This document shows positions 50,398-64,000 of a DNA stretch of 64,000 nt, one piece after another. The stretch's first letter is position 1. Every line of letters starts with the position of its first letter. The notes beneath the pieces were generated by a model that was not told the DNA's origin, searched no databases, and worked only from the letters and a program-made list of their open reading frames with translations. Origin of the DNA: Haloplanus ruber. Lineage in GTDB: Archaea > Halobacteriota > Halobacteria > Halobacteriales > Haloferacaceae. The position numbers and the translations under genes were made by a program. The stretch is from positions 248,001 to 312,000 of the forward strand of contig NZ_JANHDK010000004.1 in NCBI RefSeq assembly GCF_024494725.1, in the 5' to 3' direction.

Positions 50398-51531
50398 ATG
50401 AGTCAGGAATCGACCCTCGACAAGGCGACTCGCGACGCCGTGGCGGCCTGTCGGCGCGAACTGCCGGCGTCGGTACGGGCGCCCCGAACGGTCCTCGGGT
50501 TCGACGGCTTCGTCGACAACGTCCGGCGGGTGGTCGACGAGCGCACCACCGCCGAATCGTTCGAACCGATGACGGAACTCGGGGCGTTCGGCGAGCGTAT
50601 CGCGGCGTCGGCCGACGACCGGAGTTCCATCACCGTGGAGTGGACACGCGAGGGTACCCGAACCGGCGGCCTCACCTGTCACTTGGCGCGTGCCTTCATC
50701 GGCCTCGACGCCAGCCCCGTGATGATCGGGGCGTACGGGGCGCCGGAACTTGACGTGTTCGCCGACGAGTTCGCGGCGGCGACCCGCCACTCGTTCGGGG
50801 CTCCAAACTACACCGAGGCCGTGGAGTTCGACGACGGCAAACTCCTCGTCACGGAGACGGGGGCGACGCGGACGCTGGACTGGGAGACGCTCACCGACGC
50901 GGTCGGGGTCGAGACGCTCGCTGACGCGCTCGACGGCGCCGACGCGTTCGGCATCGGTTACTGGGTGGTCATTCCCGAACTCCCGTCGATACTGACCGGA
51001 CTCAGGGAGGCGGTGTGGCCGACGCTCGCGGACCCGCCGGAAACGGTGCTTTTGGACCCCGGCGACGTTCGCCAACTCTCCGACGACGTCCTCGCCGAGG
51101 GAATCGACCCGATACGGGCGTTCGCGGACGTCGCGCCCGTGACACTGAGTGCGAACCGCGCGGAGATGCAGCGGCTCGCAGCGCGCTTCGAGGCGCCGCC
51201 GTCGCTGTCGGCGGCCGCCACGGCGGTCCGGGACGGCCTCGGCCTGCACCGTGCCGTTGCCCACGCTGACGACGTCTCCGTCGCTGCCGGCCCCGACGGC
51301 CTCACGTCGGTGGCCGTCCCCACCGTCGACGACCCGGAACTGACGACCAGTGCGGGCGACCACTTCAACGTCGGCCTGCTGCTCGGCCTTGCGGCCGGCC
51401 TCTCGGATCCGGCGGCCGTCTGTCTGGGCAACGTCGTCGCCGGACACTTCGTCCGGCACGGTGCGCCGCCGGCCGAGGCGGACCTCCGAGCGTTCCTCGA
51501 CGGCTATCTCGACGCCTTCTCCGACCGGTGA
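50398..51531 (+). CDS. PfkB family carbohydrate kinase
   Basis: A 377-residue ribokinase-fold kinase. The N-terminal VLGFDGFVDNV is the sugar-binding strand, GLTCHLARAFIGLDASPVM corresponds to the GG-containing motif 1, and TTSAGDHFNVGLLLGLAAG is motif 2 with the catalytic Asp. In motif 2 the usual GAGD reads SAGD. The sequence is distant from fructokinase and ribokinase, so the sugar is not known. It is followed 38 bp later by a DhnA-type aldolase, a pairing that implies phosphorylation then cleavage of a ketose or keto-acid. Confidence 0.8.
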   Translation: MSQESTLDKATRDAVAACRRELPASVRAPRTVLGFDGFVDNVRRVVDERTTAESFEPMTELGAFGERIAASADDRSSITVEWTREGTRTGGLTCHLARAFIGLDASPVMIGAYGAPELDVFADEFAAATRHSFGAPNYTEAVEFDDGKLLVTETGATRTLDWETLTDAVGVETLADALDGADAFGIGYWVVIPELPSILTGLREAVWPTLADPPETVLLDPGDVRQLSDDVLAEGIDPIRAFADVAPVTLSANRAEMQRLAARFEAPPSLSAAATAVRDGLGLHRAVAHADDVSVAAGPDGLTSVAVPTVDDPELTTSAGDHFNVGLLLGLAAGLSDPAAVCLGNVVAGHFVRHGAPPAEADLRAFLDGYLDAFSDR

Positions 51532-51569: not shown

Positions 51570-52391
51570 ATGACTGATACATACGACCTCCTCGACACGC
51601 GGTCGGGAAACGCCGTCGTCGTCGCCCTGGACCACGGTCTCAACATGGGCTCGGTCGATGGGTTCAAACGGCCCGAATCGACGCTTCGGGCCGTCTTGGC
51701 GGGCGACCCGGACGGCGTCCTCGTCGGCCCACACTTCGCCCGACGGTTCGCCGACACGCTCGACTCGTCGGGTGTCGATGTCCTGCTCACCGCCGATGCG
51801 GCGCTGTTCTCGGCACGCCCTGGCGCCCGGACGGGCGAGGACATCTGGACGCCGGCCTTCTCGACGTCGTTCCTCCGAGAGTTCGACCCGAAGGGTATCA
51901 AGGTAGCGCTCGTGTTCGGCCGCGACGACCCGCGGGTGTTCGAACGCAACGTCGCCTACGTCTGTGAACTGGCGGAGCAACTCCACGACACGGATATTCC
52001 CCTCGTCGTCGAGCCGGTGATGTGGGGCCGCCACGTCCCGGACGACAGGAGTACCGACCCGGAACTGGTGGGGAACGCGAGCCGCCTCGCCTGGGAGTAC
52101 GGCGCCGACGTGCTCAAGATTCCGTACACCGGCGACCGGGAGACGTTCGAAGCCATCGTCGACGCCGCACCAGTGCCGGTCACCATCCTCGGTGGTCCCT
52201 CCTCAGGAAGTCCCGAGTCGATGCTGGACACGGTGTCCGCGGCCGTCGCGGCGGGCGCCCGTGGGCCTATCATCGGACGATCCATCTGGCAGACGCCCGA
52301 CCCGGAGCGGGTCGTCACCGCACTCGGTGCCGTCGTCCACGAGAACGCCGCTCCGGCGGACGCCTGGCAGGACGCCGCGGACGGCGGATAG
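51570..52391 (+). CDS. Class I aldolase, DhnA/LacD type
   Basis: A 273-residue Schiff-base aldolase of the DeoC/LacD/DhnA class. The N-terminal VVALDHGLNMG and the central VEPVMWG are typical; DVLKIPYTGD carries the likely Schiff-base Lys, and ILGGPSSGSPE and GPIIGRSIWQ form the phosphate site at the C-terminal end of the barrel. It should cleave the phosphorylated product of the preceding kinase to two three-carbon units. Sub-families include fructose bisphosphate, tagatose bisphosphate, autoinducer-2 and sulfosugar aldolases, and I cannot pick one. Confidence 0.82.
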   Translation: MTDTYDLLDTRSGNAVVVALDHGLNMGSVDGFKRPESTLRAVLAGDPDGVLVGPHFARRFADTLDSSGVDVLLTADAALFSARPGARTGEDIWTPAFSTSFLREFDPKGIKVALVFGRDDPRVFERNVAYVCELAEQLHDTDIPLVVEPVMWGRHVPDDRSTDPELVGNASRLAWEYGADVLKIPYTGDRETFEAIVDAAPVPVTILGGPSSGSPESMLDTVSAAVAAGARGPIIGRSIWQTPDPERVVTALGAVVHENAAPADAWQDAADGG

Positions 52392-52594: not shown

Positions 52595-52611
52595 GTTTAG
52601 AAATACTAAAC
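52595..52611. promoter_or_regulatory. GTTTAG-N5-CTAAAC palindrome, site 1
   Basis: GTTTAGAAATACTAAAC is a perfect 6-5-6 palindrome overlapping the stop codon (TAG on the minus strand, 52606-52608) of the third IclR gene. The same type of site lies upstream of that gene at 53404. Confidence 0.6.
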
Positions 52612-53373
52612 CTCGGCGTCACGGAGGTGCTGTGTCAGTCGCTCCGCGGCGCTGATGGCGAGGCCCGGGATGTCCTGTTGGAACGTCTTCCCGCGCATGT
52701 GTTCGTCGATGCCTAGGACGCCGACGGCGCCCCGGACGGTCCCCGATAGGACGATGGGGACGGCGATACCCTGGACTCCGGCGTACAGTTCGCCCCGGTC
52801 GTAGGCGAGTCCCTCGTCGCGCACGTGTTCGAGTTCCCGACTGAGGGGTTCGGTGTCGGTGATGGTGTGGTCCGTCCGCTCGACCGGATCGGCGATATCG
52901 ATGGCGTCGGACGCATCGAGACTGTCGTGGTTGGCGAGCACCGCCTTCCCGGCCGCCGAACAGTGAAGCGGGAGGGTGTCGCCGGCGACACCGTCCGGGC
53001 CTGCGTACTTCTCACCCTGTTCGCTGTGGACGAGTACCGCCTGGTGTTCCTCCCGTGCCACCAGGTTGATTCGCTGCCCCGTGGCCTCGGCGAGTTCCAC
53101 GAGGGCGTCCCTCGGAACCGTCGCGAGTCGCGTCCGCTCCGTCGCCCGCCGCCCCGGGTACAGAAATCGGAGGCCGACGTGGTAGCTATCCCCGTCCTTG
53201 GTCACGTACCCGCTCTCACGGAGGGTGGCGAGGTGGTTGTGGACGGTGCCTTTCGTGAACGGCGTGGCCGCCGCCAGTTCCGTCACCGATGCCCCGTCGT
53301 GAGCCACGAGCATCTCGACGATGCGGAGGGTCGTCCGTGTCGTCTTGACCGGGTTGCGGGCGTTGACGTCCAT
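52606..53373 (-). CDS. IclR family transcriptional regulator (sugar region)
   Basis: A 255-residue IclR regulator with the winged helix near 8-65 (KTTRTTLRIVEMLVAHDG, then TKGTVHNHLATLRESG) and an effector domain carrying LHCSAAGKAVLAN and GVQGIAVPIVLSG. The arrangement LHCSAAGKA matches the family. It comes after the galactonate-dehydratase homologue on the same strand and probably controls the sugar operon. Two GTTTA-type palindromes flank it, one 30 bp before its start and one on its stop codon. Confidence 0.9.
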   Translation of the reverse strand: MDVNARNPVKTTRTTLRIVEMLVAHDGASVTELAAATPFTKGTVHNHLATLRESGYVTKDGDSYHVGLRFLYPGRRATERTRLATVPRDALVELAEATGQRINLVAREEHQAVLVHSEQGEKYAGPDGVAGDTLPLHCSAAGKAVLANHDSLDASDAIDIADPVERTDHTITDTEPLSRELEHVRDEGLAYDRGELYAGVQGIAVPIVLSGTVRGAVGVLGIDEHMRGKTFQQDIPGLAISAAERLTQHLRDAEV

Positions 53374-53423: not shown

Positions 53424-54575
53424 CTACCACTCGGCGACGCTGCCGTCCTCGTGGTGCCAGAGCGGTGTCTGCCACCGGATCTCTTTTTCCGACTGCTCCC
53501 GGACGTAGGACTCGTCGACGTCGATTCCGAGTCCCGGCTCGGTGGGCGGTTCGAGGTTGCCGTCGTCGTACTCGAAGACGGTTGGATCTTCGAGATACCG
53601 GAGGTGTTCGTTGCCCTCCAGTTCGTGGACGCCGATACTCTGCTCTTGGAGAACCGCGTTCGGGGTGCTGAAGTCGATCTGAAGACACGCGGCGAGTGAT
53701 ATCGGGCCGACGGGGCATTTCGGCATCACGTCGACGTCGTACGCCTCAGCCATGGCGGCAATCTTCTTCACCTCGGAGATACCGCCTGCGTGGGTGATGT
53801 CGGGCTGGACGATGGCGACGGCGTCGTTGCCGAGGACGCGCTTGAAGTCCCAGCGCGTGTACATCCGCTGGCCCGTCGCCATGGGAGCGCCGACCGTCGG
53901 CGACAGTCGTTCGAGCGATTCGTTCTGGTCGGGCAAGACGGGTTCCTCGAGAAATCGGACGCCGTACGGTTCGAGCACGCTTGCGAGGCGAGGGAGACGT
54001 CCCTTGCTGATGCGCCCCCGGCAGTCGACGGCGATGTCGGCCTCGTCGCCGACGGCATCGTCGACTGCCGCGACGCGATCCCTGGCGATTTCGACGACTT
54101 CCTCGCTGTTCCGTGTGTGTGAGCGCGCGGTCATCGTCAGCTTGACCACCGAGTAGCCGTCGTCGACGGCGCGTTCGGCGTCTGCGGCCACCTCTCCCGG
54201 CTGATCACCGCCGACCCACTGGTAGAGCGGGATTCGGTCCCGTGCCCGTCCGCCGAGTAACTGGTAGACCGGAACCCCCAGTTGCTGGCCCTTGATGTCC
54301 CAGAGTGCTTGGTCGATGCCCGCGATGGCGCTCGAAAGAATGGGGCCACCACGGTAGTGACCGCCACGATAACAGCGCTGCCAGTGGCGCTCGATTTCCA
54401 TCGGGTCGTTGCCGAGGAGGAAGTCCTCGACCAGTTCGCTGACCGCCGCCCGAACCGTCCGGGTACGGCCCTCGAGGGCTGGCTCTCCCCATCCCACCGT
54501 CCCGTCGCTGGTCGTCAGCTTCAGAAACAACCACCGCGGCGGGACGGAGAACAGTTCGTAGCCGGTCACGTGCAT
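53424..54575 (-). CDS. Galactonate-dehydratase-like enolase superfamily protein with altered active site
   Basis: A 383-residue enolase-superfamily protein that follows E. coli galactonate dehydratase (DgoD) almost along its whole length, including YRGGPILSSAIAGIDQALWD, NAVLQEQSIGVHE and the C-terminal HHEDGSVAEW. By alignment from memory, Asp184, Glu210 and Glu311 are kept. The third metal ligand Glu is Gln236 (ATGQRMYTRWDF), the acid His after the first ligand is Arg186 (VDCRGR), and the other His is Lys286 (MPKCPVGP). Thus galactonate dehydration as in DgoD is doubtful; a new acid-sugar reaction is possible. Start Met 54575 matches the DgoD N-terminus. It is in the ABC importer operon. Confidence 0.85.
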   Translation of the reverse strand: MHVTGYELFSVPPRWLFLKLTTSDGTVGWGEPALEGRTRTVRAAVSELVEDFLLGNDPMEIERHWQRCYRGGHYRGGPILSSAIAGIDQALWDIKGQQLGVPVYQLLGGRARDRIPLYQWVGGDQPGEVAADAERAVDDGYSVVKLTMTARSHTRNSEEVVEIARDRVAAVDDAVGDEADIAVDCRGRISKGRLPRLASVLEPYGVRFLEEPVLPDQNESLERLSPTVGAPMATGQRMYTRWDFKRVLGNDAVAIVQPDITHAGGISEVKKIAAMAEAYDVDVMPKCPVGPISLAACLQIDFSTPNAVLQEQSIGVHELEGNEHLRYLEDPTVFEYDDGNLEPPTEPGLGIDVDESYVREQSEKEIRWQTPLWHHEDGSVAEW

Positions 54576-54632: not shown

Positions 54633-55661
54633 TTACTCCGTCGAAGGAGGGGTCGCCGCCATGCCCGCCTCCGCTGCCCGCCCCGCCGCTTGGAGCGCGT
54701 CGATCATGCTGTCCGCGTCCGCGATGCCCTCGCCCGCGATGTCGAACGCGGTGCCGTGCATGGTGCTCGTCCGGATGATGGGGAGGCCGATGGTCATGTT
54801 GACGCCTGCAACCCCGCCGCTTGGCAACACACCGTGGATGTAGACGGGGATGTGCCCCTGGTCGTGGTACATCGCGACGACGCCGTCGAACCGGCCGACG
54901 GCAGCTTGGTTGAAGATGTTGTCCGGCGCCCAGGGTCCCGATGCATCGATCCCTGTCTCCTGGGCCTGCTCGACCGCCGGTGTGATCTCTTCTTTGTCTT
55001 CGGTGCCGAGGACGCCGTCCTCACCGGCGTGGGGGTTCAGCCCACAGACGGCAATCGAGGGGTCCTCGATGCCCAAATCACGGAGGCCCTCGTCGGTCAC
55101 CTCGATGGTTTCGAGGACACGCTCCGTCGAGATGGTGTCGATAGCCTCCTGCAGCGACATGTGGACGGTGACGTGGGTGACGTGTAGTCCGTCCTGGATC
55201 AGAAGCATCGAGTACTCGTCGGTGTCGGTCCGGTCGGCGAGTAGGTTCGTATGCCCCGCGTATTCGCTCCCCCCCAGTTCGAGTGCCTTCTTGTTTATCG
55301 GCGCGTTACACATGGCGTCGATGTCGCCCGCAAGCGCGAGTTCGATACCGCGCTCGACGTACTCGAGGCTCGCCTGGCCGTAGTCGCCCCGGTGTTCACC
55401 GCGGGCCACCTCGTCGACGTTGTCGAAGTCGACGACGTCGAGGGTTCCGTCCTCGTAGTCGGCGTCGCCGACGGCGTCGACCCCCCGAATCGAGAGGTCG
55501 CTGTCACAGGCCGCGACGGCGCTTTGCATCACGTCCACGTCTCCGAGGACGACCATCCGAACGTCGTCACACACCTGCGAGTAGGCCGTGACGATGATCT
55601 CACTCCCGATGCCTGCCGGATCCCCCATAGTTACACCTACGATTGGTCGGGTCGCTTGCAT
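54633..55661 (-). CDS. PdxA family dehydrogenase (4-phosphoerythronate/threonate type likely)
   Basis: A 342-residue PdxA-family NAD-dependent dehydrogenase/decarboxylase. GVTMGDPAGIGSEI opens the protein, and metal His residues lie in YAGHTNLLAD, THVTVHMS and MYHDQGHIP. True PdxA works in pyridoxal phosphate synthesis, but archaea make PLP by PdxST. In bacteria PdxA2 enzymes oxidise D-threonate or D-erythronate 4-phosphate. In an operon with a sugar importer and a sugar-acid dehydratase homologue, the catabolic role is more likely. The kinase usually beside PdxA2 (DUF1537) is not seen here. Confidence 0.85.
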   Translation of the reverse strand: MQATRPIVGVTMGDPAGIGSEIIVTAYSQVCDDVRMVVLGDVDVMQSAVAACDSDLSIRGVDAVGDADYEDGTLDVVDFDNVDEVARGEHRGDYGQASLEYVERGIELALAGDIDAMCNAPINKKALELGGSEYAGHTNLLADRTDTDEYSMLLIQDGLHVTHVTVHMSLQEAIDTISTERVLETIEVTDEGLRDLGIEDPSIAVCGLNPHAGEDGVLGTEDKEEITPAVEQAQETGIDASGPWAPDNIFNQAAVGRFDGVVAMYHDQGHIPVYIHGVLPSGGVAGVNMTIGLPIIRTSTMHGTAFDIAGEGIADADSMIDALQAAGRAAEAGMAATPPSTE

Positions 55662-55725: not shown

Positions 55726-56919
55726 CTACGTGTTGACGACGCCGTCGCCGCCGTCGCCGTGGGTCACCTGTCGCGCCTCGGCGGGGTCGGCGAGGTTGCG
55801 CGACTCGACTGTCGTCCCCTCCTCGTCGAAGATGTACAGCGCCTTGCGCGGGAACGAGAAGTGAACGCTGGTCCCGGATTCGGGCTCGAACCCGGGCGAG
55901 ACGCGCGCCGTCCACGTCCGGGACCCGACGTCGAAATACAGGAGATTATCGCTTCCGAGTGGTTCGACCACGTCGACGGTTGTCGTGTGGTGTTGGCCCT
56001 CGAACGCCGCTGCCTCGGCGCGCAGCACGACGTCTTCCGGGCGAACACCGACGGTTACCCGGTCGCCCACCTCGATCGGGAGGTCGGCGTTCGTGTCCCC
56101 CGTCGCGTCGAGGTCGTACGTAAAGGCGTCACTCGTGACGGATTCCAGGACCGTCTGCCCGTCGCGACGGACGGCCTCTGCCTCGACGGTGTTCATCGAT
56201 GGACTCCCGATGAAGCCGGCGACGAACTGGTTGGCGGGATGGTTGTACACCTCGTTCGGTTCGCCGATCTGCTGGAGGGTGCCGTCGTTCATCACTGCGA
56301 TGCGGTCGCCCATCGTCATCGCCTCCTCCTGATCGTGCGTGACGTAGATGGAGGTGACACCCAACTGCTCTTGGATGCGGGAAATCTCCGTCCGCATCTG
56401 CTTGCGAAGCTTCGCGTCGAGGTTCGAGAGCGGTTCGTCGAACAGGAACGCCTCCGGGTCGCGGACGATTGCCCGCCCGAGGGCGACGCGCTGCTGTTGG
56501 CCGCCGGACAGCGACTTGGGTTTTTTGTCCAGGAGTTCGCCAATCTCCAGCAGGCTGGCCACGTCCTCGACCCGTTCCTCGATGTCGGCGTCCGAGAGAT
56601 CGGTGGAGAGTCGGAGTCCGAAGCCGATGTTCTCCCGCACGTTCATGTGGGGGTAGAGCGCGTAGTTCTGAAACACCATCGCGATATCCCGCTCGCGCGG
56701 TTCGAGGTTGTTCACGCGAGTCGTCCCGATCGAGATATCGCCGCCCGTCGGGTCTTCGAGGCCCGCGATCATACGGAGCGTCGTCGACTTCCCACATCCT
56801 GACGGGCCGACGAGGACGAGGAACTCCTCGTCCTCGATTTCGAGAGACAGATCGTTGACCGCGACGATGCTACCGTTGTTGAACGCCTTGCTCACGTGAT
56901 TGAGTGCGATTTGTGCCAT
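55726..56919 (-). CDS. ABC sugar importer ATP-binding protein (MalK/UgpC/MsmX type)
   Basis: A 397-residue ATPase with GPSGCGKSTT (Walker A), QNYALYPHMNV (Q loop), LSGGQQQRVALGRA (signature), FLFDEPLSNLDA (Walker B) and YVTHDQ (switch His), followed by the C-terminal TOBE/OB regulatory domain typical of MalK-like proteins. The canonical full motifs indicate an active importer ATPase. It energises the two permeases translated before it in the same operon. Confidence 0.95.
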   Translation of the reverse strand: MAQIALNHVSKAFNNGSIVAVNDLSLEIEDEEFLVLVGPSGCGKSTTLRMIAGLEDPTGGDISIGTTRVNNLEPRERDIAMVFQNYALYPHMNVRENIGFGLRLSTDLSDADIEERVEDVASLLEIGELLDKKPKSLSGGQQQRVALGRAIVRDPEAFLFDEPLSNLDAKLRKQMRTEISRIQEQLGVTSIYVTHDQEEAMTMGDRIAVMNDGTLQQIGEPNEVYNHPANQFVAGFIGSPSMNTVEAEAVRRDGQTVLESVTSDAFTYDLDATGDTNADLPIEVGDRVTVGVRPEDVVLRAEAAAFEGQHHTTTVDVVEPLGSDNLLYFDVGSRTWTARVSPGFEPESGTSVHFSFPRKALYIFDEEGTTVESRNLADPAEARQVTHGDGGDGVVNT

Positions 56920-56986: not shown

Positions 56987-57838
56987 TCATTCCTTGACCG
57001 CCCCCATCGTCAGGCCGCTAACGAGGTGTCGCTTGACGATAACGCCGAAGGTGACCATCGGCAGGAGGATGACGACGCCGGTCGCCATCACGCGACCCCA
57101 CAGCGTCCCGGTCTGGGTGACCAGTTGCGACGCCGCGATGGGCATCGTCTGTGTGGCGTTGCTGGTGAAGATCAGCGCGAAGATGAAGTCGTTCCACGAA
57201 AAGACGATGGCGATGATGGCAGTGGCGCCCATCCCTGGCCACACGAGCGGGAGGGACACCTTTCGGAACGCTTCCCACTTGGTCGCGCCGTCGATACGGG
57301 CAGCCTCCTCCAAGGCCTCGGGCACCTCGTCGAAGAACGAGCGCATCAACCAGATGGCAAAGGGAAGGTTGAACGTCGTGTGGGCGATGATGAGGCCGAG
57401 GTGTGTGTTTAGCAGGTTCAGGTAGCTGTAGAGGTAAAACAGCGGGATGACGACGACGACGATGGGGGCCATCCGGGTGCTGATGATCCAGAACGCCAGG
57501 TGTTTTTTGCCCCGGAGGTCGAGCCGCGAGAGACCATAGCCGCCGACGGTGCCGAGACTGACCGAGAGCACCGCCGTGCCGAGCGCGACGATGATGCTGT
57601 TGATGAGGAACGGCGTCACCGGGTTCGAACCCATAAACATGTCCACGTAGTACTGGAGCGTGGGGTCGAAGAATATCGTCGGCGGGAATTCGAACATCGA
57701 GCGCCGGATCTTCAGCGAGGAGATGGCCATCCAGAACAAGGGCAGGAGCGTCCAGATGGCCACCACTCCGAGGAAGGCGTACGGGCCGTACCGTCTGACC
57801 GGCCCCGGGAGTCCTGACGATGCCGTCGACTTACTCAT
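56987..57838 (-). CDS. ABC sugar importer permease, MalG type
   Basis: A 283-residue inner-membrane permease with six helices. The EAA loop is EAARIDGATKWEAFRKVSLP, the contact site for the ATPase. The N-terminal FLGVVAIWTLLPLFWMAISSLK is the first helix region of MalG/UgpE-type subunits. Its start overlaps the preceding permease gene by 8 bp. It imports a sugar or polyol delivered by the binding protein encoded upstream. Confidence 0.92.
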   Translation of the reverse strand: MSKSTASSGLPGPVRRYGPYAFLGVVAIWTLLPLFWMAISSLKIRRSMFEFPPTIFFDPTLQYYVDMFMGSNPVTPFLINSIIVALGTAVLSVSLGTVGGYGLSRLDLRGKKHLAFWIISTRMAPIVVVVIPLFYLYSYLNLLNTHLGLIIAHTTFNLPFAIWLMRSFFDEVPEALEEAARIDGATKWEAFRKVSLPLVWPGMGATAIIAIVFSWNDFIFALIFTSNATQTMPIAASQLVTQTGTLWGRVMATGVVILLPMVTFGVIVKRHLVSGLTMGAVKE

Positions 57839-58787
57839 CGCCGGCGCCCCCCATAATCGTCTCGACGAACATGAGACCCATCAGGATGGTGACGATGAGC
57901 AACACCAACCCCGTTGCGGAGCCGTAGCCCAGGTTGAAGAATCGGAGCGCCCGCTCGTAGACGTAGAGGCCAATTACCTTCGTCGAGCTGGAAGGCCCCC
58001 CACCCGTCGTGATGAACACCTTTGCGAAGTAGCGCATCAGGTCCATCGACCGCAACAGGAGGGCGATGGCGATGGCCGGCTTCAACAGTGGAAGAGTCAC
58101 GTGGCGGAACTGGGTAATCCCCGTCGCGCCATCGACGCTCGCGGCCTCGTAGAGATGCTGTGGGATGCTCTTGACCCGAGCCAGGATGATCAGGACGACA
58201 AGCGGTGTCCACTGCCACGTGTCCATGATGATGATGGACACGAGCGCGCTCGTCGAATTGGCGAGTATTGGCTGGTCTACAAACAGCCCCACCTGGTTCA
58301 ACATGTACGTATAGAGGCCGAAGGAGGGATCGAGGAGGAACTGCCAGAGCAGACCCACGACCACCGGCGCGATCATCATCGGCATGATGATGATGCTCGT
58401 CAGGAGATTCTCGCCCCGCGACACGCGGTGGAGCATTACGGCGATGAGAATCCCGAGGCCGAGTTGCAGACCCAGCGATCCCGCCACGTAAAATAGGGTT
58501 ACCCGCCACGAGTTCCAGAAGTTCCCGTCCGCGGCCATCTGCGTGTAGTTCCCGAAGCCGAGGAAGATCACCTCGTTGACCGGCGTGAAGTTCACCTCGT
58601 GGAACGACAGGTAGATCATCACCACCAACGGGATGATACTGAGTACCGCGAGGGTTGCGATGCTCGGGAGGAGCAGTAACATCTCGAACGAAATCGGCAC
58701 CGAATCGAGTACCGACTGGTCCGTCTCCTCGGGCTCGCCACCGACGTACGCGTCTGTTGGCATCGTATTCGTTTGTTGTCCGGTCAT
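57831..58787 (-). CDS. ABC sugar importer permease, MalF/UgpA type
   Basis: A 318-residue permease with six helices after a short polar N-terminus. The EAA loop reads YEAASVDGATGITQFRHVTL. The helix region LLPSIATLAVLSIIPLVVMIYL and LGFGNYTQMAADGNFWNS match the MalF/UgpA class. It pairs with the MalG-type subunit. It starts 73 bp after the binding-protein stop; together they form the core of a carbohydrate uptake operon. Confidence 0.92.
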   Translation of the reverse strand: MTGQQTNTMPTDAYVGGEPEETDQSVLDSVPISFEMLLLLPSIATLAVLSIIPLVVMIYLSFHEVNFTPVNEVIFLGFGNYTQMAADGNFWNSWRVTLFYVAGSLGLQLGLGILIAVMLHRVSRGENLLTSIIIMPMMIAPVVVGLLWQFLLDPSFGLYTYMLNQVGLFVDQPILANSTSALVSIIIMDTWQWTPLVVLIILARVKSIPQHLYEAASVDGATGITQFRHVTLPLLKPAIAIALLLRSMDLMRYFAKVFITTGGGPSSSTKVIGLYVYERALRFFNLGYGSATGLVLLIVTILMGLMFVETIMGGAGDE

Positions 58788-58860: not shown

Positions 58861-60297
58861 TTACAGGATGTTCGAGAAGCCGTCGGCGCACGCCTGCATC
58901 GTGTCTGCCGCCGGCTGGTCACCGGAGACCATCGCTGAACCTTCGGTGTAGATGACCTGTTCTAGCTGGAGCCAGTCCGGGTGGTGGGGGCGCTGTCCGA
59001 TGTTGTCCAAGTCCCACCCCTCGACGATCGGTGGGGAGACGTTCGGATACTCGCTTTCGCCTGCCGTTTGATCGCTGGCAGCCTGCACGTCGTCGCGGTC
59101 GTACACCGACTGACGGGTCGGCGTGCCGCCAACCTCGGAGAGCAGTCGGTACTGAATCTCTTCGGAGGTCGTCCACTCGATGAACTGCCAGGCGGCTTTC
59201 TTTTTCTCCGGCGTCGTGTGCGCGTTGATCCCGATGCTGCTCCCACCGTAGTGGGCCTGGACGTTCCGGTTCTCCGCCGGTCCCGACGGGGCCAGCGTCC
59301 ACCGAACCGTGTCCGCGATTTCGCTCGACTCGGGGTCAGCGAAGAGACCGCTGTTCTCGTGCCACTGTGGCGACATCGCCATCTCACCGTTGGCAAACGC
59401 CTGTGCGACGCCACCCCAGTCCCACGTCGTGCTGGCAGGATGAGCGACGTCGTTGACCAGTTCTTGATAGAACTCGGCTGCCTGCATGGAGGCGTCGTCG
59501 GTGAACCCGGCGGAGATGTCGTCAGGGAGGATCGGGTCCTTGCCGTCGAACCCTTCCAGTTGTGTGCCGCCGAAGGACCACTGGATCATCTCGAACTCGT
59601 TGGCCAGCGATTGGTGTTGGGCAGCCATGTGGCCGGTTCCGTACGGAACCATGTCGTCCGGGACATTCTCGGTGATCCACCGGGCGACTTCCATATACTG
59701 CGACCACGTCATGTCGGGGTTCGGTTCGGCCTCGAATCCCAGGTCGCTGGTCGCCTGGTCACCGTACTCGTCGAACACGTCCTGACGGTATGCCAGGAGA
59801 ATCGTCGGACAGTCGTAGGGGAGGCCCCGGATCGTTCCGTCGTCCTCGAACTCCGAGCACGCGACGCGGTGGATTTCGATGTGATCCTCGTAGTCGTAGT
59901 CGTTTTGCTCGATATAGCCGTTCAGCGGTTCGAGGTCGGTGTAGTACGGCGCCCCGATGTTGTACGGATCGACGTACGCGACGTCGTAGTTGGCCGACTG
60001 GCTCGTCAGGTCGTTCGCAAGCTGTTCGGTGTAGTTCAGCAGAGGCGAAAGGGTGAACTCAACTTCGATACCGGTCTCCTCCGTGAACTCTCCCACGATG
60101 GACTGCAGCGCCTCGCTCGGTGCCGTCGATTCCGTGATGAACTGGATGCTATCTGCCGCTTCGACGTCGTCACCGGGAGGCGTGCCGTCGCTACCGCCGC
60201 CGCCGCCACCACCCGAACAGCCCGCGAGAGCCGTGACGGTGGCTGCGGCACCTGTCGCCCGAAGAAATCTACGCCTGTCAATAGTCTTCCGTGACAT
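58861..60297 (-). CDS. Extracellular sugar-binding lipoprotein (ABC importer)
   Basis: A 478-residue substrate-binding protein of the carbohydrate (family 1) type. The N-terminus has a twin-arginine signal and lipobox (DRRRFLRATG, then ALAGCSGGGG) and a Gly/Ser/Asp linker, the haloarchaeal way of anchoring binding proteins. The mature part shows GIEVEFTLSPLLNYTEQLA, DVAYVDPYNIG and GVAQAFANGEMAMSP, typical strands and hinge of the family. Met 60297 is chosen since upstream Mets precede no signal. It is divergent from the FGGY kinase. The ligand is unknown. Confidence 0.9.
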   Translation of the reverse strand: MSRKTIDRRRFLRATGAAATVTALAGCSGGGGGGGSDGTPPGDDVEAADSIQFITESTAPSEALQSIVGEFTEETGIEVEFTLSPLLNYTEQLANDLTSQSANYDVAYVDPYNIGAPYYTDLEPLNGYIEQNDYDYEDHIEIHRVACSEFEDDGTIRGLPYDCPTILLAYRQDVFDEYGDQATSDLGFEAEPNPDMTWSQYMEVARWITENVPDDMVPYGTGHMAAQHQSLANEFEMIQWSFGGTQLEGFDGKDPILPDDISAGFTDDASMQAAEFYQELVNDVAHPASTTWDWGGVAQAFANGEMAMSPQWHENSGLFADPESSEIADTVRWTLAPSGPAENRNVQAHYGGSSIGINAHTTPEKKKAAWQFIEWTTSEEIQYRLLSEVGGTPTRQSVYDRDDVQAASDQTAGESEYPNVSPPIVEGWDLDNIGQRPHHPDWLQLEQVIYTEGSAMVSGDQPAADTMQACADGFSNIL

Positions 60298-60407
60298 GTC
60301 TTTGCACAATTTACCATCATCATACATAATTATTTTCCTAGCTGAACGGGCGTCGGCGTCGGCTGTCGGCGTGAGGCTTATCTGCACCCTCTGTCCTATC
60401 TCGTAGC

Positions 60408-61889
60408 ATGACAAATCACGTCGCAATCGACGTGGGGTCCAACGGCGGCACCATCTGGGTTGGGCGACGCGACGGCGACAGCCTCGACGTCGGGGAGGTG
60501 TATCGGTTCGACAACGGTCCCGTCGAGCGAGACGGGCGGTACGTCTGGGCCATCGACCAACTCCTCGACGAAATCGAGACGGGACTTCTCGCGGCCGAAC
60601 GGGAGTACGGCCCCCTCTCTACCCTCGCCGTCGAGACGACTGGCCTCGATTTCACATTCTTCCGCGATGGGGAGCCGATGCGTGATCCGTACTTCTACCG
60701 CGATCCGTCGGTCACGTCGACGCTCGACGACCTCCTCGAACGCGTCGGGAAACGCGAGATATTCGACCAGACGGGTATCAACCACTGGAACGTTCCCAAC
60801 TCGCTGTGGCAGTATCACTACCAGACCCACGCCTCGCCGGAGATTGTCCAATCGGCGGAGACACTGGTGATGCTCCCACAGGTGCTCACGCACGCGATGG
60901 GAGGGAGCGTCAACCCCGACAAATCGATCGCTTCGACGGCACAGATGTTCGATATCGAGTCCGAGACGTGGGCAACGGATCTCCTCGAGACACTCGACCT
61001 CCGAACTGACCTCCTACCGAACCTCGAGGAACCCGGCACGAAGGTGGGCACACTCGACGAGTCGTTCGCACCTGGCCTCGACAGTCGGCCGGATATCCTC
61101 CTGACGGCCACCCACGACACGGCGTGTGCCGTCGCGGCGACGCCGTTCGGTGCCGGCGATCGGACCTTTCTGAGCACCGGGTCGTGGTTCATCGTTGGCA
61201 TCGAACTCGACGCTCCCCGCGTGACCGACGAAGCCTTCGCCGTCGAAGCGTCCAACGAGTACGGTGCCGAGGGGACGACCCGGTTTCTGAAGAACGTCAC
61301 CGGGTTCAACCTCCTCGAATACGCCCGCGAGAAGTGGCGCGAAGAGGGGAACCCCCACGAGTACGACGTCATCTTCTCGGAGATGGCCGACACCGACCCC
61401 TTCGGCCCGCTCATCGACCCGGACGCCGACCTGTTCATGGCCGGGACACTGGAGGGCGACATCGTCGAGAAGATCGGCCAGTACTGCCGGGAGACCGGAC
61501 AGGCCGTCCCGGAAGGGGTCGGAGAGATAACCCGGTGTCTGCTCGAAAGTCTCGCGGCGAAGACGGCGTACGCCCTCTCGCAGCTCCAAGGGGCCGCCGA
61601 CGTCGAGAGTGACCAGTTGAACGCCGTCGGCGGCGGGGTCAGAAACGAGCCGTTCCTCCGGATGCTGGCGGGAGCGACCGGCCTTCCGGTCGTTGCCGGC
61701 CCGGTCGAGGCGACGTCGCTCGGGAACCTCCTCGTACAGATGAACGCCACCGACACGATCACCGACCTCGCGGAGGGGCGGCGGCTGCTCCGCGAGACGG
61801 CCGATCTCACGGCGTACGAACCCGCCGACCGCGACGCGTGGGCCGAAACCGTCGACCGGATGGCGACGCTCGCCGACCGAGTGGGGTAG
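60408..61889 (+). CDS. FGGY family kinase, rhamnulokinase-like
   Basis: A 493-residue FGGY carbohydrate kinase. The N-terminal AIDVGSNGGTIWVGR is the phosphate loop; VETTGLDFTFFRDGEPMRDP and YRDPSV match the rhamnulokinase branch, as do GKREIFDQTGINHWNVPNSL and FLSTGSWFIVGIEL. The C-terminal GGGVRNEPFLRMLAG is the adenosine site. It phosphorylates a ketose, probably a deoxy-ketohexose or pentulose. It starts a plus-strand set with an aldo/keto reductase and a class II aldolase, matching a kinase-aldolase-aldehyde reductase logic. No isomerase is seen in the window. Confidence 0.87.
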   Translation: MTNHVAIDVGSNGGTIWVGRRDGDSLDVGEVYRFDNGPVERDGRYVWAIDQLLDEIETGLLAAEREYGPLSTLAVETTGLDFTFFRDGEPMRDPYFYRDPSVTSTLDDLLERVGKREIFDQTGINHWNVPNSLWQYHYQTHASPEIVQSAETLVMLPQVLTHAMGGSVNPDKSIASTAQMFDIESETWATDLLETLDLRTDLLPNLEEPGTKVGTLDESFAPGLDSRPDILLTATHDTACAVAATPFGAGDRTFLSTGSWFIVGIELDAPRVTDEAFAVEASNEYGAEGTTRFLKNVTGFNLLEYAREKWREEGNPHEYDVIFSEMADTDPFGPLIDPDADLFMAGTLEGDIVEKIGQYCRETGQAVPEGVGEITRCLLESLAAKTAYALSQLQGAADVESDQLNAVGGGVRNEPFLRMLAGATGLPVVAGPVEATSLGNLLVQMNATDTITDLAEGRRLLRETADLTAYEPADRDAWAETVDRMATLADRVG

Positions 61890-61920
61890 TTTTACCTCCG
61901 AAGCCGCCACAACGTGATTC

Positions 61921-62931
61921 ATGGACTGGGTACCCCTCGGACGGACGGGGACGATGGTCACGGAACTGCCCTTCGGCACGTGGCGATTCGGCCGCGAGAC
62001 AGACGAAGGCTCCGTCGAAATCGACGAAACGCGGGCGTACGAACTTCTCGATGCCTACGAGGCCCACGGCGGTCGGTTTATTGACACCGCGGACATGTAC
62101 GGCGGGGGAAAGAGCGAGAGGTGGATCGGCAACTGGCTCGCCGACCGCGACCGGGAGGACTTCGTCGTCGCCTCGAAGATATACTGGCCGACCCGTGACG
62201 ATCCGAACGGTCGAGGGTTGGGCCGAAAACACCTCCGGCGGCAGGTCGACGCGATTCTCGACCGCCTGGGGACGGACTACGTGGACCTGCTGTACGTCCA
62301 CCGCTGGGACGACGAAACGCCCGTCGAGGAGTTCATGCGGACGCTCGACGGCTTCGTCGACTCCGGCCGAGTCCACCATCTCGGCGCCTCGACGCTCTGG
62401 CCCAACGCCTGGAAGGTCGTCCGCGCGAACGCCGTCGCGGACAGACGGGGCTACGAACCGTTCACCGTCGTCCAGCCCCGGTACAACCTCGTCAACCGGG
62501 AAATCGAGGGACCGTTCCTGGAGATGTGCGAGAGCGAGGACCTCGGCGTCGTGCCGTGGAGCCCACTCGGGGAGGGGTTCCTGACCGGCAAGTACGACCG
62601 GGACGACGTCTCGAACGCCGATTCCCGAGCGGCCGAGGACGACAGCTTCGAATCGAAGTATCTCACCGACGAGAACTTCGCCGTCCTCGACACCCTCCAA
62701 GAGGTAGCCTCCGAGGTCGACGCCACCCCCGCACAGGTCGCGCTCGCGTGGCTCCTGCACCACGATCAGGTCGTGGGACCCATCGTCGGCGCCCGAACCG
62801 TCGACCAACTGGAGGAGAACCTCGGTGCCGTCGACGTCTCCCTCTCGGACGACCAGTTCGAGCGTCTCGCCGCCGCCAAGTCCGGCCCGTTCCCGGACAT
62901 CGTCGACTCGCCGGCCCGGGGCGATCGGTAA
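61921..62931 (+). CDS. Aldo/keto reductase
   Basis: A 336-residue NADPH-dependent aldo/keto reductase of the YghZ/Tas-like group. The complete catalytic tetrad is present: Asp55 and Tyr60 (FIDTADMYGGGKSE), Lys86 (VVASKIYWP) and His127 (LLYVHRWD). The C-terminal cofactor site is VGPIVGARTVDQLEENLGAV. Between a rhamnulokinase-like kinase and a class II aldolase it could reduce lactaldehyde or glycolaldehyde released by the aldolase, or act on a sugar. It starts 31 bp after the kinase stop. Confidence 0.9.
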   Translation: MDWVPLGRTGTMVTELPFGTWRFGRETDEGSVEIDETRAYELLDAYEAHGGRFIDTADMYGGGKSERWIGNWLADRDREDFVVASKIYWPTRDDPNGRGLGRKHLRRQVDAILDRLGTDYVDLLYVHRWDDETPVEEFMRTLDGFVDSGRVHHLGASTLWPNAWKVVRANAVADRRGYEPFTVVQPRYNLVNREIEGPFLEMCESEDLGVVPWSPLGEGFLTGKYDRDDVSNADSRAAEDDSFESKYLTDENFAVLDTLQEVASEVDATPAQVALAWLLHHDQVVGPIVGARTVDQLEENLGAVDVSLSDDQFERLAAAKSGPFPDIVDSPARGDR

Positions 62932-63048
62932 CCCCAGCAGTTATTAGCGGGGGGCGTCACGGCCTTCTCGGGAACTCGTCACACGCCGGTCTCTCGGCCG
63001 GCGTCGTGACGTTACACCGACGACGTGCGGAAACATACGGAGCTAACG

Positions 63049-64000
63049 ATGTCACATCAGTCCAGTCTCGACGCAAAGCGACACGCGATAAGTGTGTTCG
63101 GGCGACGGATGCTCGAACAGGGTCTCACGAAAGGTACCGGCGGGAACATCAGCGCCCGCGAGGGAGATACGATCGCCATCAGCCCCTCCGGGATGCCGTA
63201 CGACGAGATCGATCCCGAAGACGTTCCGACAATCGATCTACAGGGCGATCACGTCTCGGGTGATCGCGTCCCCTCCAGCGAACGCCGGATGCACGCGACG
63301 ATCCTCCGCGAACGCGAGGACGTGGGGGCCGTCGTTCACACCCACTCGCCGTACGCGACGACCTTCGCCAGTCTCGACGAGTCCGTTCGCCCGTCACATT
63401 ACCTCATCGCCTTCGTCGGCGACGAGATTCCCGTCTCGGGGTACGCCACCTACGGGACCGCCGACCTCGCCGAGTTGGCCATCGATGCCCTCGGCGACGA
63501 GTACGACGCCTGCCTGTTGCGAAACCACGGGACTATCGCCGTCGGCGACACCGTCGAGGCGGCGTTCGAGCGCGCACTGATGGTGGAGTACTGTGCGCGA
63601 ATCCACTACCAGGCACGGAACATCGGCGAACCGACGCTGCTCCCCGACGAGGAGATCGGTCGCCTCCGTGAGATGTTCGAGAGCTACGGCCAGAGCAGCC
63701 AAGACGAGGTCGACCCGGTCGCCCCCGCTCCCGACGCCGACGAGTTGGCCGACGGGCGGGACGCGGTCGCCACCCTCGGTGTCGAGATGCTCGAACAGGG
63801 GCTTACGAAGGGGACCGGCGGCAACGTCAGCGCGCGCGACGGCGACAGAGTCGCGATCAACCCCTCGGGAGTCCCCTACGGCGAGGTCACCCCCGAGACG
63901 GTCCCGCTGGTCGACTTGGAGGGCGAACAGGTCGCGGGCGAACTCGCGGCATCGAGCGAGACGCCGATGCATACGATGATCTACCGCGAGCGCGACGATG
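63049..64000 (+). CDS. Tandem class II aldolase/AraD-like protein (3' end outside window)
   Basis: A class II aldolase of the fuculose-1-phosphate/rhamnulose-1-phosphate/AraD type with two copies of the domain in one chain. ATG 63049 gives 317 residues before the window ends. Domain 1 (about 8-215) has GTGGNISARE, the catalytic Glu78 (SSERRMHATILRERE), zinc ligands His97 and His99 (VVHTHSPYAT) and His160 (LLRNHGTIAVG). A 20-residue acidic linker leads to domain 2 (from about 235) with LTKGTGGNVSARDGD and SSETPMHTMIYRERD. Single-domain aldolases are about 215 residues, so this is a fusion or internal duplication. It completes the kinase-reductase-aldolase set. Confidence 0.88.
   Translation, partial: MSHQSSLDAKRHAISVFGRRMLEQGLTKGTGGNISAREGDTIAISPSGMPYDEIDPEDVPTIDLQGDHVSGDRVPSSERRMHATILREREDVGAVVHTHSPYATTFASLDESVRPSHYLIAFVGDEIPVSGYATYGTADLAELAIDALGDEYDACLLRNHGTIAVGDTVEAAFERALMVEYCARIHYQARNIGEPTLLPDEEIGRLREMFESYGQSSQDEVDPVAPAPDADELADGRDAVATLGVEMLEQGLTKGTGGNVSARDGDRVAINPSGVPYGEVTPETVPLVDLEGEQVAGELAASSETPMHTMIYRERDD

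Follow-up and report, generated by a model that had tools for sequence, protein, structure and literature searches.

Within the window, by which we mean the whole 64,000-nucleotide stretch of DNA analysed here, lies a gene whose product resembles the D-galactonate dehydratase DgoD and carries other residues at three places of the active site. The locus raises the question of whether this protein still dehydrates galactonate, has acquired another reaction or has lost catalysis. From the nearest relatives and the gene content we read the host as a haloarchaeon. In E. coli numbering, we take Asp183, Glu209 and Glu235 to be the metal ligands of DgoD, His185 its acid/base residue and His285-Asp258 its catalytic dyad. 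Reactions in the enolase superfamily follow a general scheme of acid/base catalysis with Mg2+ (PMC9795676).

The DgoD homologue and its active site

The open reading frame coincided exactly with positions 53424-54575 of the minus strand, which the original prediction had left unnamed, and stop codons interrupt the plus strand across the interval. The product matched the NCBIfam model PRK14017/NF010624 "galactonate dehydratase" over its full length with 540.6 bits (cutoff 311), which bears out the predicted similarity to DgoD from end to end. It contained both enolase-superfamily domains, MR_MLE_N and MR_MLE_C (Pfam PF02746 and PF13378), and reached 60% to haloarchaeal DgoD. Canonical DgoD was absent from the host genome, where the next best relative was 35% identical. 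The closest solved structure was the Ralstonia pickettii enzyme 3rr1 (3rra with Mg2+). An AlphaFold model built with 59 family sequences had a pLDDT of 91.6 and superposed on 3rr1/3rra with a TM of 0.92-0.94; a capping domain and a barrel are predicted (Foldseek TM 0.92), and we regard the fold as a confident prediction.

In its active-site series the window protein reads D184-R186-E210-Q236-D259-K286-E311, whereas canonical DgoD reads D-H-E-E-D-H-E. In the alignment with 3rr1/3rra, which had no gap near these sites, R186 and K286 each faced a His and Q236 a Glu; D184 matched an Asp, and E210 and E311 each matched a Glu. The six residues of the original prediction, three replaced and three kept, were thus all correct, and neither His nor Glu appeared at positions 186, 236 or 286. 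Of the metal-ligand set, Asp184 and Glu210 are retained and the third acidic ligand is Gln236; the catalytic His185 has become Arg186, and in the place of the His285-Asp258 dyad stands Lys286 with Asp259 kept. The capping-domain residues are also like those of DgoD, and W15 and E31 are retained. Misalignment was ruled out by phmmer, MAFFT and the structure model, all sites being ungapped.

His, Glu and His occupy positions 186, 236 and 286 in each of 125 full-length canonical homologues, but this set was picked by these very positions, and the informative point is how common the type is. Canonical DgoD has 104 positions with at least 95% conservation, and the window protein differs at 10 of them. 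Seven of these 10 lie no more than two residues from the active site, taken as nine positions (7/26 near vs 3/78 far; p = 0.002 by Fisher's test), and with R186, Q236 and K286 left out the clustering gave p = 0.046. Around the pocket F73H, A143V, A284M and I309L were also found. Since the deviations cluster near active-site positions, the pocket has changed beyond the three named residues.

A second species of the same genus, G396, carries an orthologue that is 97% identical and lies in a syntenic cluster, and all seven active-site codons are the same in both. The pairwise dN/dS between the two was 0.061, the lowest of 11 cluster genes (the other ten, 0.090-0.235). Together with a clade of homologues with replaced residues, this bears out that the gene is intact and that the change evolved. 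The original prediction had drawn that conclusion from the replacements being full codons; the conclusion stands, but the argument was weak by itself and needed the orthologue. A sequencing error or a decaying pseudogene was ruled out by the identical codons in G396, the dN/dS of 0.06, the lack of stops and the pLDDT of 91.6. We consider the chance that misalignment, sequencing error or pseudogene formation explains the site to be negligible. Close orthologues beyond G396 were not found in 391 genomes of the class, 392 of the order and 170 of the family.

The gene neighbourhood in the window

The gene belongs to a minus-strand operon with the order solute-binding protein, two permeases, ATPase, PdxA-type dehydrogenase, DgoD homologue and IclR regulator (Table 1). 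PdxA2 and D-threonate 4-phosphate dehydrogenase are among the nearest solved relatives of the dehydrogenase. Upstream of the operon and on the opposite strand lie an FGGY kinase, an aldo/keto reductase and a class II aldolase. The orthologue of this aldolase narrowly exceeded the NCBIfam model for ribulose-1-phosphate aldolase (304.5 bits, cutoff 300) and also passed that for L-fuculose-phosphate aldolase, PRK06833; ribulose-1-phosphate aldolase is a characterised haloarchaeal enzyme (PMC9700705). SDR and MDR genes are present in the window as well.

Table 1. Features at and around the DgoD homologue, in window positions
Feature	Position	Strand	Remarks
Prokaryotic ketohexokinase (PfkB-like)	50398..51531	plus	
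DeoC/LacD-family aldolase	51570..52391	plus	
IclR-type regulator	52606..53373	minus	last gene of the minus-strand run
DgoD homologue	53424..54575	minus	383 aa; D184 R186 E210 Q236 D259 K286 E311
Codon AAA, Lys286 (His285 of DgoD)	53718..53720	minus	by alignment; same codon in G396
Codon CAG, Gln236 (third metal-ligand Glu of DgoD)	53868..53870	minus	by alignment; same codon in G396
Codon CGG, Arg186 (His185, E. coli DgoD numbering)	54018..54020	minus	by alignment; same codon in G396
PdxA-family dehydrogenase	54633..55661	minus	57 bp upstream of the DgoD homologue
ABC transporter ATPase (UgpC/MalK type)	55726..56919	minus	
ABC transporter permease	56987..57838	minus	by gene order and homology to permeases in related clusters
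ABC transporter permease	57831..58787	minus	by gene order and homology to permeases in related clusters
Solute-binding protein	58861..60426	minus	start codon uncertain
FGGY kinase, rhamnulokinase-like	60375..61886	plus	by G396 orthologue; stop-to-stop frame, start not set
Aldo/keto reductase	61918..62928	plus	open frame, start not set
Class II aldolase, FucA/ribulose-1-phosphate-aldolase type	63010..63999	plus	by orthologue; reaches the window edge

The genes that link DgoD to its pathway, galactose dehydrogenase, KDG kinase and aldolase, were not recognised here, and the gene is instead accompanied by the FGGY kinase, the class II aldolase and PdxA. No kinase of the De Ley-Doudoroff pathway adjoins the gene, unlike DgoD, and the window cluster held no recognisable 2-keto-3-deoxy-sugar kinase or KDG/KDPG-type aldolase. 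Likewise, no homologue of the PfkB kinase of three canonical loci (L088, L093, L095) was recognised there. Downstream of the operon, the ketohexokinase and the DeoC/LacD-family aldolase stand next to each other and are likely a cleavage pair of the fructose-1-phosphate type.

Relatives with Arg or Ser at position 186

We read 198 homologues at the same columns and used the 177 above the score cut for the counts; the survey is a sample rather than a complete count: the search covered 392 genomes at the level of the order and 170 at that of the family, and part of the matches were read residue by residue. The canonical series was by far the commonest (128 of the 198 homologues), and 11 had D-H-D-E-D-H-E. 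The equivalent of His185 was replaced in 35 distinct homologues, all haloarchaeal, by Arg in 31 and by Ser in 4. None of 41 bacterial homologues had such a replacement, all being canonical, in a search that included 398 genomes from the phylum of Paenibacillus. D-R-E-E-D-N-D was found in 10 sequences from one other haloarchaeal family (f7), D-R-E-E-V-N-D in 4, D-R-E-E-D-H-A/S in 6, D-R-E-Q-S-H-A in 4 and D-S-E-E-D-H-G in 4. The window type, D-R-E-Q-D-K-E, occurred twice and D-R-E-Q-A-K-E once; four singletons make up the rest. We define the R/S186 group by Arg or Ser at 186 together with the loss of Ile309, and the window protein, with R186 and L309, belongs to it. Most members keep the full D/E/E metal set, and positions 259, 286 and 311 vary, leaving the metal ligands D184 and E210 as the only common catalytic residues. 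The search for homologues with the same Arg/Gln/Lys triad, proposed in the original prediction, found it in two species of one genus and in the less securely related L106 from another genus. Restriction of the triad to a single genome was thereby ruled out, by G396 and less securely by L106, the only relative with the triad outside the genus, which has lost D259 and K145.

In the trees, two sub-clades of these R/S186 proteins were strongly supported, an ND clade with Asn286 and Asp311 and an FG clade beside FGGY kinases. The three proteins with the triad grouped weakly with each other and with FG when the active-site columns were left out and long branches removed; L106 and the window gene also grouped weakly once these columns were removed. 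Trees without the active-site columns needed 2-5 changes, depending on the long branches. A single clade of all R/S186 members was not rejected by the AU test (p = 0.737), nor, with it, a single origin.

The FG proteins (L129, L130, L150, L116, L163, L197 and others) resemble the window protein in Arg or Ser at 186, F73H or F73Y and a replaced I309, but have His286, Ala, Ser or Gly at 311 and mostly Glu236, where the window protein has Lys286, Glu311 and Gln236. Their loci, like the window, contain a class II aldolase, an IclR gene and often an FGGY kinase or PdxA; single or fused class II aldolases, a 2-hydroxyacid dehydrogenase and GlpA/GlpB recur beside the FGGY kinase, and PdxA sometimes. 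Canonical haloarchaeal loci often have a different SDR or a PfkB kinase. A class II aldolase lay near 16 of 18 FG and triad loci vs none of 9 canonical haloarchaeal loci (p about 1e-5), and an FGGY kinase near 14 of 18 vs none of 9 (p about 1.5e-4), values that overstate the contrast because the 18 loci are mutually related; after collapse to distinct clusters, the aldolase was found in 9 of 11 vs 0 of 9 (p = 3e-4). At L140, of the kinase, aldolase and PdxA set only a class II aldolase is beside the DgoD homologue, together with an IclR gene, and an IclR-type gene is near almost every R/S186 member. That the branch is wider than the window group and has other gene neighbours, a point absent from the original prediction, argues against a simple change of substrate within the galactose pathway. 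As a side observation, two R186-type homologues adjoin a fused double aldolase with two Aldolase_II domains per chain (L150:6488-7861, L139:17309-18661). Three genomes have adjacent genes for an FGGY kinase and a PdxA-type dehydrogenase (L150:2204-4860, L139:4636-7371, L216:11890-14556), possibly a sugar-acid kinase and an oxidative decarboxylase giving DHAP.

The ND proteins (D-R-E-E-D/V-N-D) share with the window protein Arg186 in place of His and a nearby IclR regulator and ABC transporter. They differ in keeping Glu236, in Asn286 and Asp311, and in their setting among chitinases, GH3, a PIG-L deacetylase, a glucose dehydrogenase and a SelA-like protein. Chitin/GlcNAc clusters with an R186/N286/D311 homologue were observed in two haloarchaeal families (L141, L142, L143, L217, L209, L210, L219). 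A chitinase cluster of Natrarchaeobius has been described with a protein labelled GAD (galactonate dehydratase) and no pathway step given (PMC12343721); it is probably an ND-type protein, the two being equated by their matching cluster make-up. The putative dehydratase 2poz of Mesorhizobium loti, from the same superfamily, has Ser at the His185 position, and this site therefore varies elsewhere too; it is 33% identical to the window protein and, unlike it, keeps His and Glu at 286 and 236. Misannotation of enolase-superfamily proteins that lack functional residues is recognised as a class of its own, "MFR" (PMC2781113), and the type of event is thus already known. For the haloarchaeal R/S186 branch or the Arg/Gln/Lys site, we found no published account in a literature search confined largely to openly accessible papers.

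Possible roles of the altered protein

We know of no activity, substrate or structure for any R186 member. With a probability of roughly 0.55, we favour the reading that the window protein is a functional, selectively maintained and re-specialised offshoot of the DgoD family, with a rebuilt active site and changed chemistry, and no longer a D-galactonate dehydratase. Since both His and one carboxylate ligand are lost, no 2-keto-3-deoxy-sugar genes were recognised and selection is strong, we infer that galactonate dehydration is gone and that another catalytic role persists. The residue sets conserved in each sub-clade favour new or changed catalysis over random decay. Judged by its neighbours, which need not share a pathway with it, the protein would act upstream of a kinase/aldolase route that yields DHAP. 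An imported sugar or sugar derivative would undergo the altered chemistry and enter this route, where the FGGY kinase and the FucA/RhaD-type aldolase would produce dihydroxyacetone phosphate; if the intermediate were an acid, the PdxA-type oxidative decarboxylase would also take part. As to the substrate class, our guess is a compound derived from a ketose or polyol. We would further guess that Lys286, still next to Asp259, is the likeliest proton-transfer residue, and that Arg186 holds the substrate anion or replaces charge of the weakened metal site.

The main rival is a pseudoenzyme that has lost catalysis and retains the DgoD fold to bind a sugar ligand or a partner, in regulation or assembly. 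Arg186 and Lys286 would then neutralise the carboxylates that formerly held Mg2+; positive charges indeed occupy the place of the dication, and both His were lost together with one of three metal ligands. The IclR-type regulator beside nearly every member also fits, as does the variability at 259, 286 and 311, which is expected under relaxed catalytic constraint and leaves no common catalytic residue beyond D184/E210. However, position-specific residue sets are conserved within the sub-clades, most members have the complete metal set, the window protein keeps D184, E210, D259, E311, W15 and E31, and very strong purifying selection acts over its whole length. We hold a pseudoenzyme to be unlikely, yet worth serious consideration. 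Improbable in our view is that the protein is still an acid-sugar dehydratase of the galactonate type, perhaps for another aldonate, with Lys286-Asp259 as base, Arg186 as acid and an Asp/Glu/Gln metal site. Its closeness to haloarchaeal DgoD and to the PRK14017 model, the retained Asp259 and Glu311, and the adjoining PdxA, which suggests acid-sugar flux, are in its favour, but the cluster has no recognised kinase or aldolase for a 2-keto-3-deoxy sugar, the residues at 259, 286 and 311 are lost in many related members, and the neighbours look more like those of ketose-phosphate than of 2-keto-3-deoxy chemistry.

Beyond the favoured reading of a re-specialised protein, the R/S186 group might perform at least one new enolase-superfamily reaction that dispenses with the His acid/base pair and, in the window group, also with the third carboxylate ligand; this is a speculative proposal that we rate as rather doubtful. 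Members of the chitin branch could act, for example, on amino-sugar acids, and those of the FGGY/aldolase branch on a derivative of a ketose or pentose. The proteins would fill steps of the clusters for which no other enzyme was recognised. One guess is an aldose-ketose isomerase, as no isomerase was recognised in the clusters.

All 11 R/S186-type proteins that were scored passed the PRK14017 model and are therefore expected to carry the name galactonate dehydratase in databases. They are likely drawn into reconstructions of the De Ley-Doudoroff pathway despite their missing catalytic residues. In addition, they point to unassigned steps both in the breakdown of chitin/GlcNAc by haloarchaea and in pathways with FGGY kinases and class II aldolases; another FucA homologue has been noted as a hint at pentose or nucleoside routes yet to be discovered (PMC9700705). 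Within a single enolase-superfamily family, the branch offers a series of naturally occurring active-site replacements.

Other departures from the canonical series were observed with His186 kept. A divergent homologue of the same genus (L086:9335-10486, genome G367) has Gly236, Ser259, Gln311 and, in the cap, W15L, possibly a separate loss. Two homologues (L099:8039-9163, L100:7964-9091) have Asn286 with Gln or Pro at 311, a further independent departure. In the D-H-D-E-D-H-E proteins (L103, L104, L112-L115, L124, L126, L128, L153, L223), which form a well-supported haloarchaeal clade, Glu210 is replaced by Asp and both catalytic His are kept.
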